From: Promethearchaeota archaeon
GTDB lineage: Archaea; Asgardarchaeota; Lokiarchaeia; Sigynarchaeales; SOKP01
Length of the DNA: 10,307 nucleotides
Assembly (NCBI GenBank): GCA_019057735.1
Contig: JAHLWV010000064.1
Coordinates: 1 to 10,307 of the forward strand
Direction of reading: 5' to 3'
Shown here: positions 4,108 to 9,776 of the stretch, one piece after another
How the letters are laid out: each line of letters starts with the position of its first letter
Position numbering within the stretch: position 1 is the first letter of the stretch
Notes under the pieces: model-generated
Seen by the model: only the letters and a program-made list of their open reading frames with translations
The model's database searches: none
What the model was told of the DNA's origin: nothing
Program-made: the position numbers and the translations under genes

Positions 4108-5256
4108 TTAGAAGCATCTGTGAATGACTTGTGGTCCCATTTCTTTATATTCCCTTCTAGTTACCCACATTCTGTGGAAAGTTTTCAAGGAACTTAAAAT
4201 TGAACCACCAATCCATACGGAATACATACGCTCTGGAGGAGCAATAATCTTTACATCAACTGATTCTGGAATCTGTTCTTTAATTTCTTTTGTTAATCTT
4301 TCTTTGATTCCAGGGAACATTGTTGAGCCACCAGAAAGCACAATATTACCATAAAGGTCTCTACGAAGGTCGACATCACAATCTGAAATAGCACTGACAA
4401 TTACATCATCGAGAGGTTCTAATTCTTTCCCGATTACTGATGGATTGAAGAAGCATTCAGGTGCTAAAAATCTTTCTACACCTACATTTATAGTTTCTCC
4501 GTCAGGAAGCATGTAGCTTTTTTCCATTCCAGCAACTTTCTTTGAAAGCATCATCTCTTTCTCTGGATCGATTGCTACATAGCAGAGTTTTTCTTTTATA
4601 TCTCTAACAATTTCTTTCTCTGCAGAGGTTGTAAATGAGTATCCTTTTTGTCGGAGTAATCTTTGTAGGTACGTTGTGATATCACGGCCAGCAAGATCGA
4701 TTCTTTGGATTGCATGACTTAGAGCAAAGCCTTCGAAAATAGGTACTACGTGAGAAACACCATCCCCAATATCTATGACGCATCCAGTCGTTCGACCAGA
4801 AGCATATAGCGATAAAACTGCTTGCATTGCTACATAAAGGGCTGGAACGTTAAAGGTTTCAAACATAATTTCAGCCATTTTCTCTCTGTTTGGTCTAGGG
4901 TTTAATGGAGCTTCAGTTAATAGAACCGGATGTTCGCTAGGATCGATTCTCAAGTCTGTATAAAAAGTGTAATGCCAAATCTTTTCCATAGCGGTCCAAT
5001 CTTCGATAATACCATGTTCTACTGGAAACATTAACTTTAGAACACCTTTCAATTGCATTGCTTCTTCTCCAATGTAGTATTCACGAGTGTAATGCTCGAC
5101 ATCAGTCATTATCGATTCATATTTTGGATAGCCAATAAGAGTTGGAAATACAGAACGAGGTTGGTCTTCACCAGCGAAGCCATTCTTGGAAATTCCAGTC
5201 CCATTATCGACTACTAAGGCTTTCGCGTTTAAAAAACTACTATCTTCTTCTGCCAT
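4108..5256 (-). CDS. Asgard archaeal actin (lokiactin)
   Basis: A 382-aa actin, seven residues longer than rabbit muscle actin and alignable to it end to end. It should bind ATP and polymerise into filaments of the archaeal cytoskeleton. Nucleotide-binding residues are conserved: D17 and K24 in [15 protein letters not shown] (actin D11, K18), Q145 in [14 protein letters not shown] (catalytic Q137), D162 in DIGDGVSH (D154) and H169 (H161). Other near-identical blocks are [27 protein letters not shown] (here [16 protein letters not shown]), [12 protein letters not shown] and [18 protein letters not shown]. The DNase I-binding loop region (44-66) is two residues longer and more acidic than in muscle actin; Met44 is kept as M50. 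The C-terminus ends HRCF rather than HRKCF. The Asgard family members polymerise and interact with profilins; no profilin or gelsolin gene is in this window. The gene has its own promoter and terminator. Confidence 0.97.
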
Positions 5257-6713: not shown

Positions 6714-7016
6714 TTAATCTTTCTTTAGAATCAACTTATTAATATTAATATCTTGGTATTCTCCGCTTGGATATTTACGCCTTATAGTTAAAGGTAAGAT
6801 TTTTGATTTTAATTCTAATAGCGCAATTTTAATTGGATCGATGACATTTTTGGGTTTGTTTATTAGGATAGGAGCGCCGAACGAGATTTGTAAAGCCCTA
6901 GCACCAGTAATTCGGGCTTTTTCATATCTTGTAAGAAAGATTGAACCAACCTTAATCGTTTTTCGAACTTCTTTATATAACTTCCTCAATTCACGAGATT
7001 CTAAAAAAGAAGACAT
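6714..7016 (-). CDS. rpoK: DNA-directed RNA polymerase subunit K (Rpo6, RPB6 homologue)
   Basis: A 100-aa small core subunit of archaeal RNA polymerase, homologous to eukaryotic RPB6 and bacterial omega; it stabilises assembly of the largest subunit. The family signature is intact: LTRYEKARITGARALQIS, then FGAPILI, DPIKIALLELKSKILPLTIRRKYPSG. A basic N-terminal extension of about 27 residues precedes the conserved domain, so it is longer than the shortest archaeal forms (near 57 aa) but within family range. The start is supported by AGGT on the minus strand at 7024-7027, 7 nt before ATG 7016. A TATA-like stretch at 7055-7070 predicts a leader of about 19 nt. The tRNA-Val gene ends 109 nt upstream on the same strand, so read-through from it is also possible. 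Confidence 0.93.
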   Translation of the reverse strand: MSSFLESRELRKLYKEVRKTIKVGSIFLTRYEKARITGARALQISFGAPILINKPKNVIDPIKIALLELKSKILPLTIRRKYPSGEYQDININKLILKKD

Positions 7017-7070: not shown

Positions 7071-7142
7071 TTTTTTGGTTTTCTTCCGATATCAGTTAGT
7101 TCGATTATTTTTACGTTGTTAGAGATGGTGCGCAAGGGGGGA

Positions 7143-7172
7143 ATTTTTCAGCTTAAAAGAATTTTTTAGACT
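7143..7172 (-). other. tRNA-Val intron 3 (about 30 nt, T-loop)
   Basis: Between T-stem strands GGGGG and CCCCC lie 37 nt where 7 are expected. The inner helix GTCTAAAA/TTTTAAGC has one C-A mismatch and one T-G pair. The central helix is TTCA/TGAA and the 5' bulge is AAA. The 3' bulge is AAATT, two bases larger than canonical. The cut positions are therefore uncertain by one or two bases; either TTCAAAT or TTCAATT would be a valid T-loop. Confidence 0.65.
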
Positions 7173-7187
7173 TTTGAACCCCCGACC

Positions 7188-7219
7188 GTCGAGATTAACG
7201 CCTTGAATTGGCGAAAATT
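7188..7219 (-). other. tRNA-Val intron 2 (32 nt, variable loop)
   Basis: Inserted between nucleotides 44 and 45; removal restores a standard AGGTC variable loop. The fold has inner stems CGCC/GGCG and ATT/AAT with a TT/TT internal loop. The central helix is CGTG/CTCG with one T-T mismatch, the 3-nt bulges are TAA and ACG, and a 2-bp outer helix follows. Cuts at TA^A and AC^G reproduce the expected tRNA exactly. Confidence 0.7.
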
Positions 7220-7235
7220 TACACGGTGTGAGCGT

Positions 7236-7267
7236 TTAACGCTTTCCAAAGTAACCCATTAGAAAGT
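7236..7267 (-). other. tRNA-Val intron 1 (32 nt, anticodon stem)
   Basis: The intron lies between nucleotides 28 and 29, inside the anticodon stem rather than at the usual 37/38. A canonical bulge-helix-bulge is visible: central helix AACG/CGTT, 5' bulge ACA (cut AC^A), 3' bulge AAA (cut AA^A) and inner helix CTTTC/GAAAG. An ACAC/AC repetition at the joint makes the exact cut ambiguous by up to two bases without changing the product. The outer helix is weak in this fold. Confidence 0.75.
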
Positions 7268-7320
7268 GTCGTTATACGTCTAAACCACTCGCGCAGCCTA
7301 TTGTGAATAAATATTATAGA

Positions 7321-7330
7321 TTAATTATTA
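7321..7330 (-). promoter_or_regulatory. Candidate TATA box of tRNA-Val
   Basis: On the minus strand TAATAATTAA is centred about 31 nt before the mature tRNA 5' end, which would give a leader of roughly 5 nt. Other AT-rich words at 7308-7319 and 7340-7353 compete with it, so the assignment is weak. Confidence 0.25.
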
Positions 7331-7417
7331 AAAAGGTATTAATATAATTTAAGAGATTCTATAGACTCTGTAACTTTAATATATTTCTAAGCTATACCTC
7401 TTTGAAAGAGTTTCGTT

Positions 7418-7490: not shown

Positions 7491-9776
7491 GTGCTGAGGA
7501 GAGCATATCAAGAAAATATTTTTATAAATTGCCTTAATACAAACTGCTTAGTTGTCATTCCAACGGGATTAGGAAAAACAATTATTGCTTTAATGTTAGC
7601 TATACACAAATTGTCAGAAACGCCTAATTCTAAAATAATCTTCTTAGCTCCAACTAAACCTCTTGTAAATCAACATTATAAATCTTTTTTAGATCTAACG
7701 GTTATACCTGAGGAAAACTTAAAAGTAATTACTGGAACCACATCACCAGAAAAAAGGAGAGATATCTGGAAGGGTTTAGAAATTGCTTTTATGACACCAC
7801 AAGTACTTCAAAATGATATTATATCCAATCTTTATTCGTTAGAGAATGTACCGTTAATTATTTTTGATGAATGTCATCGGAGTGTAGGAGATTACGCGTA
7901 TTGTTTTATTGCTAAGAAGTATGTAGAATCTGCTAAGAATTTTCAAATCTTAGGGCTTACCGCAAGTCCAGGATCTACGGAAGGGAAGATTAACGAAATA
8001 AAAAAGAATTTATATATCGACCACATTGAAATTAGAACAGAACAAGATTCGGATGTGAAACCTTACATCTTTAAGGTCGAGAACGAGTGGATTAAAGTTA
8101 AGCTTCCAAGTGAATTTATGGATATCAAACTAATAATAACCGAGAAACTAAGAACAATTTATAAATGGTTAAAACAACAAGAATTACTAAATTCGTCAGA
8201 TATTACTAAAGTTACTAGAAAAGATTTGCTTGCGTTAGACAGAATAATTAATGGAAGAATTTCATCTGCAAGAACAGATGAGGAGAAGTTTCGATTATTT
8301 ACTGCGAAAAAATCTGTAGCAAATGCGATAAGATTGTCCCACATGGATGAACTTATCGAAACTCAAGGAGTTAGTGCATTAAATGATTATATGAGAAAAA
8401 ATATTAAAAAGATAAAACAAAACACTGCAAATAAATCACTAAAAGAACTTTTTAGAGATTCTGATATAAAGCGCGCTCTTAGGTTAATTGAAACTATCAA
8501 ACAAAAAGGTATTGTTCATCCTAAACTAGAAAAACTTGCGAAAATTTTACATAATCAAATCATTGAAAATAAAGACTCGAGAATATTAGTATTTTGTCAT
8601 TTTAGAGACTCAGTCAACAATATAGTTAAATTTATTGAAAAAGATGAAGTAATAAGGGCTCACAAATTCGTAGGACAAGCTAACAGAGCTCTAGATAAAG
8701 GCCTGACTCAAAAAAAACAAATACAATTACTAGAAGAGTTCAAAGAAGGAATATATAATACATTAATAGCTACAAGTGTTGGAGAAGAAGGTTTAGATAT
8801 AGCAGAATGTGATTTAGTAATATTTTATGACATTGTACCGAGTGCTGTACGTTCTATTCAACGTCGAGGAAGAACTGGGAGAAAAAAGGAAGGAAAAGTT
8901 CTCTTACTAATGGCTGAAGGTACTCGTGATGAAGGATATTTTTGGGCTGAAAAAGCTAAGGAACGGGTTATGAATCAAAGCTTAAAAACCATGAAAGAAA
9001 ATGATTCAAGTTCGAAAGCAGGACAATCAAACCTTTTAAATTTTATAAAAGAAGACGAAGACAATAAGGATCCTAGTAATTTAAAAAATATTTCAGATTT
9101 ATCGTCTATCCAAAAGATTGAGGGTGCTCAGGATTACACAATAATTTGCGATAATAGAGAGACAGTCTCTGCTGTTGTTAGAGCACTATCCCTTATGGGG
9201 GTTAGTTTAGAACTAAAACAATTACCCATCGCAGACTATATACTCTCAGAAAGAGTTGGAATCGAAAGAAAATCAGCGCAAGATTTTAACGAGTCCGTTA
9301 AAGATGGGAGACTGTTTAACGAACTATTTGAGTTAAAAAATAATTTTGTCAGACCCATATTAATATTAGAAGGAGACCCTTTTATAAATTCAAACATCAA
9401 CCAAAACGCGCTCTACGGTGCGATTACTTCAATTATTTTGAATTTAGGAATTACAATATATAAAACAAACAATCCGTCTGACTCTGCCATGTTTATTTAT
9501 CAGCTTGCTAAAAAAGAACAATCAGACTCTAAAAAGGAATTTAAATTAAGATTTGACAAGAAACCAATAGAAATTACTAGTTTATTAGAATACATCGTTG
9601 CAGGTATTCCAGGTATAAACGCTCTTAGAGCTAAAAACTTACTTAGAGAATTGAAATCGCTTCAAAAGATTTTTAACGCTGATATTGGGGATTTAATGAG
9701 TGTTGAAAATATTGGAAAGAAAATTGCTCAAGAAATATATAAGCTAAGCAGATTTAAATATCAAAATGACCACTAA
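7491..9776 (+). CDS. hef: Hef: archaeal XPF/FANCM-family helicase and fork-structure endonuclease
   Basis: A 761-aa protein (from this start) that unwinds and cuts stalled or branched replication-fork DNA, the archaeal counterpart of eukaryotic FANCM and XPF. The superfamily 2 helicase has a Q-motif RRAYQ (3-7), Walker A PTGLGKT (24-30), DECH box (126-129), TAS (157-159) and motif VI QRRGRTGR (457-464). A PIP-box, QSNLLNFI (512-519), should bind the PCNA clamp. The XPF-type nuclease follows: D554-NRE and the catalytic ERKSAQD (592-598). A tandem helix-hairpin-helix domain ends the protein (AGIPGINALRAKNLL from about 704, then VENIGKKIAQEI). Every motif of the active fused form is present. GTG 7491 has an AAAGGA site 7 nt upstream, but conserved N-terminal sequence seems to lie upstream of it. 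It converges on the aminotransferase gene with 18 nt between stop codons. Confidence 0.95.
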   Translation: MLRRAYQENIFINCLNTNCLVVIPTGLGKTIIALMLAIHKLSETPNSKIIFLAPTKPLVNQHYKSFLDLTVIPEENLKVITGTTSPEKRRDIWKGLEIAFMTPQVLQNDIISNLYSLENVPLIIFDECHRSVGDYAYCFIAKKYVESAKNFQILGLTASPGSTEGKINEIKKNLYIDHIEIRTEQDSDVKPYIFKVENEWIKVKLPSEFMDIKLIITEKLRTIYKWLKQQELLNSSDITKVTRKDLLALDRIINGRISSARTDEEKFRLFTAKKSVANAIRLSHMDELIETQGVSALNDYMRKNIKKIKQNTANKSLKELFRDSDIKRALRLIETIKQKGIVHPKLEKLAKILHNQIIENKDSRILVFCHFRDSVNNIVKFIEKDEVIRAHKFVGQANRALDKGLTQKKQIQLLEEFKEGIYNTLIATSVGEEGLDIAECDLVIFYDIVPSAVRSIQRRGRTGRKKEGKVLLLMAEGTRDEGYFWAEKAKERVMNQSLKTMKENDSSSKAGQSNLLNFIKEDEDNKDPSNLKNISDLSSIQKIEGAQDYTIICDNRETVSAVVRALSLMGVSLELKQLPIADYILSERVGIERKSAQDFNESVKDGRLFNELFELKNNFVRPILILEGDPFINSNINQNALYGAITSIILNLGITIYKTNNPSDSAMFIYQLAKKEQSDSKKEFKLRFDKKPIEITSLLEYIVAGIPGINALRAKNLLRELKSLQKIFNADIGDLMSVENIGKKIAQEIYKLSRFKYQNDH

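Follow-up and report, generated by a model that had tools for sequence, protein, structure and literature searches.

Can a tRNA gene that is interrupted at three places and escapes standard searches still yield a tRNA? The question is raised by a 10,307-nt contig of a Promethearchaeota archaeon (GenBank assembly GCA_019057735.1, contig JAHLWV010000064.1; this whole stretch is called the window below), in which a first-pass annotation had placed a tRNA-Val(CAC) gene with three introns. We conclude that the locus is almost certainly a functional Lokiarchaeal tRNA-Val(CAC) gene, whose single precursor would be spliced at positions 28/29, 44/45 and 58/59 by the ordinary archaeal machinery. The gene, its boundaries, the conservation of its splice motifs and the presence of both splicing enzymes in relatives are established by sequence comparison.

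Exons, introns and orthologues

The gene lies on the minus strand and reads from 7294 to 7129, a span of 166 nt from precursor base 1 to base 73 that holds four exons and three introns. In reading order these are exon 1 (27 nt, 7268..7294; positions 1-28, with the 5′ acceptor strand, the D-arm and 27-28), intron A (32 nt, 7236..7267, at 28/29), exon 2 (16 nt, 7220..7235; positions 29-44, the anticodon stem-loop with CAC), intron B (32 nt, 7188..7219, at 44/45), exon 3 (14 nt, 7174..7187; positions 45-58, with the variable loop, 5′ T-stem and TTCAA), intron C (30 nt, 7144..7173, at 58/59) and exon 4 (15 nt, 7129..7143; positions 59-73, with T59, T60, the 3′ T-stem, the 3′ acceptor strand and A73). 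The exon limits come from the splice motif cuts, and for exon 1 also from a search program described below. Insert lengths had been put at 32, 32 and about 30 nt, close to the 32/32/30 measured, and the joins expected at 28/29, 44/45 and in the T-loop hold, with the last refined to 58/59 by its motif. All exons lie in order within the 166 nt, which rules out a split or permuted tRNA gene, and no open reading frame of at least 60 aa in the program-made list spans the gene.

Removal of the introns restores a cloverleaf that ARAGORN calls tRNA-Val(cac). The acceptor stem GCGCGAG/CTTGCGC forms 7/7 pairs, although one is G-U, so that its description as perfect needs that reservation. The T-stem (GGGGG/CCCCC) and the anticodon loop (CTCACAC) read as annotated; the CAC anticodon sits in a 7-nt loop after U33, and A73 is present. 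The D-loop, AGACGTA, lacks the usual GG and carries GT in its place, so the spliced product is not fully standard: the normal 75-nt tRNA that had been foreseen is right in length (72 nt of exons plus CCA) but not in its D-loop. The CCA immediately 3′ of A73 (7126..7128, minus strand) is indeed in the window, as annotated, but among 26 orthologous genes only those of the window and L020 have it. It is therefore probably there by chance, and we reject it as a genuine feature.

The orthologues were found by way of the divergent upstream neighbour, a Hef-like helicase-nuclease (7491..9776, plus strand; matches to DEAD, Helicase_C, ERCC4 and HHH domains). With this gene as anchor, Hef orthologues led to 32 Lokiarchaeota loci (L001 and following), and 25 of them have an orthologous tRNA gene on the strand opposite to Hef and no more than 1.3 kb upstream of it, making 26 genes with the window; the short L006 gene was entered by hand instead of by automatic extraction. 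Of the seven loci without an orthologue, L001, L010 and L015 have short flanks (149, 67 and 584 nt upstream), and in L018, L021, L026 and L031 the tRNA patterns used matched nothing. This comparison with related Asgard genomes had been named as a check in the first-pass annotation. One of the genes that it yielded, that of L006, has no intron at all: its 73 nt equal the predicted spliced product of the window at 69/73 aligned positions.

Introns A, B and C occur together in 11 of the 26 genes (the window, L002, L003, L004, L005, L019, L020, L022, L023, L029 and L030). The remaining 15 have A alone (eight genes), B and C (two), an anticodon-loop intron of the 37/38 type, here called D, alone (two), B alone (one), D and C (one) or none (L006). 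Thus A is missing in 7 genes, B in 12 and C in 12, with the tRNA body kept. The statement that no intron sits at 37/38 is true for the window but not for L007, L017 and L025, which have D. Exons and introns have diverged very differently. Exons are identical to those of the window at 72/72 positions in L003, L004, L019, L022 and L030 and at 71/72 in L002 and L005, whereas the introns of the first five match at 23/36 to 30/32 (A), 27/32 to 30/32 (B) and 23/30 to 28/30 (C); L003, for example, has 23/36, 28/32 and 23/30.

Copy number was gauged with a 15-base pattern across the anticodon arm, allowing up to one mismatch, in the genomes of 14 relatives; the pattern is blind to copies interrupted inside it or lying in assembly gaps. 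It matched 13 of the 14 genomes, and once in each of the seven of the window's clade (those of L002, L003, L004, L005, L019, L022 and L030). L007's genome gave no match because an intron interrupts the pattern there, and two matches each were found in the genomes of L020 (one of them mismatched) and L027. The two perfect matches in L027's genome (G014) are on two contigs, and reflect either a duplicate gene or a mixed bin.

Splice motifs and tests against chance

In the window, 3-nt bulges flank a 4-bp helix (H) at each intron. For A, H is AACG/CGTT, paired 4/4, with bulges AC|A and AA|A and an inner helix CTTTC/GAAAG. For B, H is CGTG/CTCG, paired 3/4 with one U-U, and the inner helix is ATT..CGCC/GGCG..AAT; for C, H is GTTC/GAAA, paired 3/4, and the inner helix is AGTCTAAAA/TTTTAAGCT with one mismatch. 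The outer exon helix is incomplete, which makes these motifs of the HBh′ type.

Motif pairs were counted over distinct sequences (18 for A, 14 for B and 12 for C), with intron C of L017, L023 and L029 cut at 59/60; in L023 another cut of C has a higher raw motif score but spoils the T-loop. Pairs are kept in 144/180 cells for A, 108/140 for B and 106/120 for C, while control counts with the partner slid by 1-3 nt reach at most 85, 74 and 60. Both partners have changed in 16, 14 and 32 cells, where the slid controls give no more than 12, 6 and 11. Together with the single pattern matches in seven genomes, the intronless L006 gene and the contrast between exon conservation and intron divergence, these compensatory changes bear out the original proposal of a tRNA-Val(CAC) gene with three introns.

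It had been anticipated that general tRNA finders might miss the gene, and two of them do. At its normal threshold ARAGORN, with or without anticodon-loop introns allowed, finds no tRNA in the unspliced window; at a lowered threshold it makes 17 calls there and still misses the tRNA-Val gene; one call that overlaps the gene is read as a tRNA-Phe with a 267-nt intron. Rfam does not report the unspliced gene in the window at E values up to 1. Among relatives at Rfam gathering scores, the intronless L006 gene scores 67.2 bits and the one-intron L032 gene 48 bits, and the two-intron L027 gene is missed. Standard tRNA searches can evidently lose such interrupted genes.

A search program written for this analysis first locates an acceptor stem, a T-arm and a D-loop, and then seeks sets of bulge-helix-bulge inserts that leave a cloverleaf once removed. 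Its D-loop pattern was widened to admit the window's GT for GG, so the search was not wholly blind. On both strands of the window it returns a single candidate, which is this gene, with inserts of 32/32/30 nt, the anticodon CAC and a score of 61. On a complete Lokiarchaeal chromosome it returns 34 solutions, 26 of them scoring at least 53 and tRNA-like; the reversed chromosome (2.27 Mb) gives 12 chance solutions, the best scoring 44. In 5000 shuffles of each insert with the splice sites fixed, the observed helix score was reached 0 times for A, 11 times for B and 5 times for C. Folding of the precursor gives -53.3 kcal/mol (z = -4.3); the predicted structure contains the acceptor stem and three hairpins but lacks the D-arm and the anticodon arm that the mature tRNA would have.

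Splicing and the alternatives

How would the tRNA be made? Some 28-40 nt upstream, an A+T-rich stretch resembling a TATA box (7322..7334, minus strand), seen by eye in the window and in several relatives, is a putative promoter, from which the gene would be transcribed as a single 166-nt precursor. An endonuclease of the (alpha-beta)2 type would then cut in the bulges at the three non-canonical sites, RtcB would join the exons, CCA would be added, and the resulting tRNA-Val would presumably decode GUG codons.

The enzymes for these steps were sought in the genomes of eight relatives. The tRNA-intron endonuclease family is present as two paralogues of about 200 aa each, both of them in seven of the eight genomes; in L020's genome the second type (beta) alone was found. 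At the positions that we take to be catalytic, the alpha subunits (L033-L039) have Tyr, His and Lys, and in the beta subunits (L040-L047) the His is missing in all 8 rows. The enzyme of these relatives is thus predicted to be of the two-subunit (alpha-beta)2 type, with a catalytic and a structural subunit. The best PDB matches of the alpha subunit are 3p1z, 3ajv and 2cv8, presumably all crenarchaeal endonucleases, and GISKPR of the L039 alpha subunit aligns with DVEKPR of 3p1z. The KPR appears to be that of the 'Crenarchaea-specific loop', and is present in all seven Lokiarchaeal alpha sequences. This loop has a lysine followed by Pro/Val and Arg/Lys (K44-P45-R46 in A. pernix), and its residues have been tied to broad substrate recognition (PMC12397907); the word Asgard is absent from that text. 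RtcB is present in 8/8 relatives' genomes, a set partly different from that used for the endonuclease. The endonuclease pair with its KPR loop, together with RtcB, is what leads us to propose ordinary archaeal splicing by an enzyme of broad specificity. The KPR loop in a Lokiarchaeal endonuclease may also bear on the origin of relaxed splice-site recognition near the eukaryote branch.

Several observations count against this account of a functional, thrice-spliced gene. The H helices of B and C each carry a mismatch in the window, and so follow a relaxed motif. Taken alone, the inner helix of A has 74 of its 108 cells paired, compared with 66 after a slide by one position, and the number of extra pair types is the same as in the slid control for both A (11, 11) and B (8, 8); from the pair and pair-type counts together we judge C to show strong covariation, B moderate covariation and the inner helix of A a weak signal. 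At fixed cuts the motif fits poorly in intron B of L020 (P 0.52) and intron A of L013 (P 0.24). The D-loop GG is missing in 8/26 orthologues (the window, L002, L003, L004, L005, L019, L022 and L030), which cluster together in the Hef tree. This GG is near-universal in tRNAs and contacts the T-loop, so that its loss should weaken the contact between the two loops. Finally, copy number and enzymes are known from the genomes of relatives, all metagenome assemblies, rather than from the window's own.

One alternative is a three-intron tRNA with somewhat different splice sites, above all at B, where the window's clade has a U-U in the central helix. We consider this unlikely. H of B has 3/4 pairs in the window and the program favours another cut of B in L020; even so, the cuts used here reproduce the exon sequence of the orthologues that lack B (L006, L007 and L025), and in L023, L027, L028 and L029 those cuts give a fully paired H of B.

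It is very unlikely that the locus is a pseudogene, that is, a tRNA broken by insertions and no longer processed, with GUG read by another tRNA-Val. A tRNA-Val(UAC) could read GUG by wobble, and a pseudogene would accord with the failure of ARAGORN and Rfam and with the D-loop lacking GG. It would not accord with 72 exon bases unchanged in five relatives whose introns have changed, with compensatory changes in the splice motifs, with the anticodon-arm pattern found once per genome in 7/7 genomes of the window's clade, or with an intact intronless orthologue in L006.

That the RNA stays unspliced and works as a structured molecule with three extra hairpins is scarcely credible: the precursor does fold well (z = -4.3), but 15/26 orthologues lack one or more of the three inserts and keep the tRNA body, and the inserts start and end at splice-type bulges.

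Known systems and intron turnover

A functional tRNA-Val gene with three introns is within what is known of archaea, where tRNA genes have up to three introns (PMC8450103), a maximum also given for Thermoproteales (PMC4033280), at positions that include 29/30, 30/31, 45/46 and 59/60 (PMC4090602). The multi-intron genes of Pyrobaculum and other Thermoproteales are of the same kind but belong to another lineage than Lokiarchaeota. The first-pass annotation knew of no such arrangement in a lokiactin-bearing genome; taken as a statement on Asgard archaea, this is only partly right. In Atabeyarchaeia and Freyarchaeia, which are Asgard like the window but of other lineages, 92-95% of tRNA genes have been described with introns, over half of them with multiple introns and often at non-canonical positions (PMC11291895, of 2024); the phrases two, three or four introns are absent from the main text of that paper, to which the search was confined. 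In Lokiarchaeota, tRNA-Sec is reported to have one T-arm intron (Mariotti 2016, as cited in PMC5330540), which shares the non-canonical arm with our gene, but it is a single intron in another tRNA. Outside archaea, tRNA-Ile(UAU) of the red alga Cyanidioschyzon merolae also has three introns, in the D-, anticodon and T-arms (PMC9602550), although in a eukaryote, in another tRNA and at other positions. Within titles and the beginnings of abstracts in the open-licence literature, supplements excluded, we found nothing on multi-intron tRNA genes in Lokiarchaeota. Given the multi-intron genes of Thermoproteales and of other Asgard archaea, the window gene belongs to a known kind that appears to be new for Lokiarchaeota, to which it is extended here with good comparative support. 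The loci also form a natural series, from zero to three introns in one gene beside a constant neighbour, for tracing how archaeal tRNA introns are gained and lost.

Two cases in the series stand out. The Hef tree, which excludes L028 and L031, places L013 and L017 as sisters (support 100/99), and over the 120 nt 5′ of the tRNA the two loci are nearly identical right up to its first base. L013 has intron A and L017 has D and C, and the tRNA body differs as well; past the tRNA about 40 nt (L013) or 80 nt (L017) differ, and identity is back before the next gene. This suggests that intron content was switched inside unchanged flanks, as in-place replacement of the gene would produce. In the second case, intron A of L020 is 94% identical to that of L019 and of L004, with Hef proteins only 66-68% identical (68% for L019); among the 121 pairs of loci whose Hef identity is below 75%, L020/L019 included, intron A identity averages 68% (sd 7). 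Introns B and C of L020 agree with those of the window at 15/36 and 19/30 positions. Both cases suggest recombination, and assembly chimaeras could also give such patterns.

In Thermoproteales, intron spread has been ascribed to transposition between tRNA genes. In our search of 14 genomes, which covered intron A, its core (up to 3 mismatches) was found in four, in one place each and always in the tRNA-Val gene. Copying from another tRNA gene is thus unsupported for A, and with no second place for the core in any of the 14 genomes we do not favour transposition as its source. It is possible, though we would stop short of calling it probable, that Lokiarchaeota are a further hot spot of archaeal tRNA introns, changing chiefly by homologous replacement of tRNA genes or segments between lineages and not by transposition, permitted by an endonuclease with a Crenarchaeota-type loop, and with four introns in some genes, one above the archaeal maximum stated in PMC8450103.

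Other tRNA genes were surveyed in the complete chromosome of L007's genome (2,265,824 bases, of which 13,700 are N). Introns are present in 18 of the 26 tRNA genes resolved, and six have two or three, so that multi-intron genes are not rare in this genome, whose own tRNA-Val(CAC) gene has one intron. The survey is incomplete and single cuts may be wrong: ARAGORN lists further tRNA genes, and the gene resolved at 703796-703899 has an implausible cut.

The same chromosome holds a 207-nt tRNA gene with four inserts (L168, G008:C1:741716-741922, minus strand), in the D-arm, anticodon loop, variable loop and T-loop; its loop CTTATAA gives Ile UAU if read directly. By-eye comparison with orthologues, in which 8/16 loci were readable, shows the same four inserts in L169 (205 nt). 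L170, L171, L172, L175, L177 and L179 lack the variable-loop insert, the T-loop insert or both, and a further insert interrupts the D-loop of L172 and L175. For the anticodon-loop insert of L168 no standard bulge-helix-bulge was found by eye, and the intron program gave no solution for the gene, so this four-insert gene is a lead only.

The window is Asgard-archaeal DNA, as judged from an actin-family gene at 4108-5256 (Pfam Actin, E = 6e-133; lokiactin in the first-pass annotation) and from the Hef-like helicase, which is 94% identical over 760 columns to that of 'Candidatus Lokiarchaeota archaeon E44_bin85' (L001). Downstream of the tRNA lies a gene for RNA polymerase subunit Rpb6/RpoK (6714..7016, minus strand; PF01192). 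Upstream of Hef, L004 and the window are 94% identical over 414 nt, yet their Hef proteins are 78% identical. Ahead of this 414-nt stretch, the start of the L004 contig (before about position 25) carries CTGTCTCTTATACA on the minus strand, a sequence that, as we take it, resembles a sequencing-library adapter.
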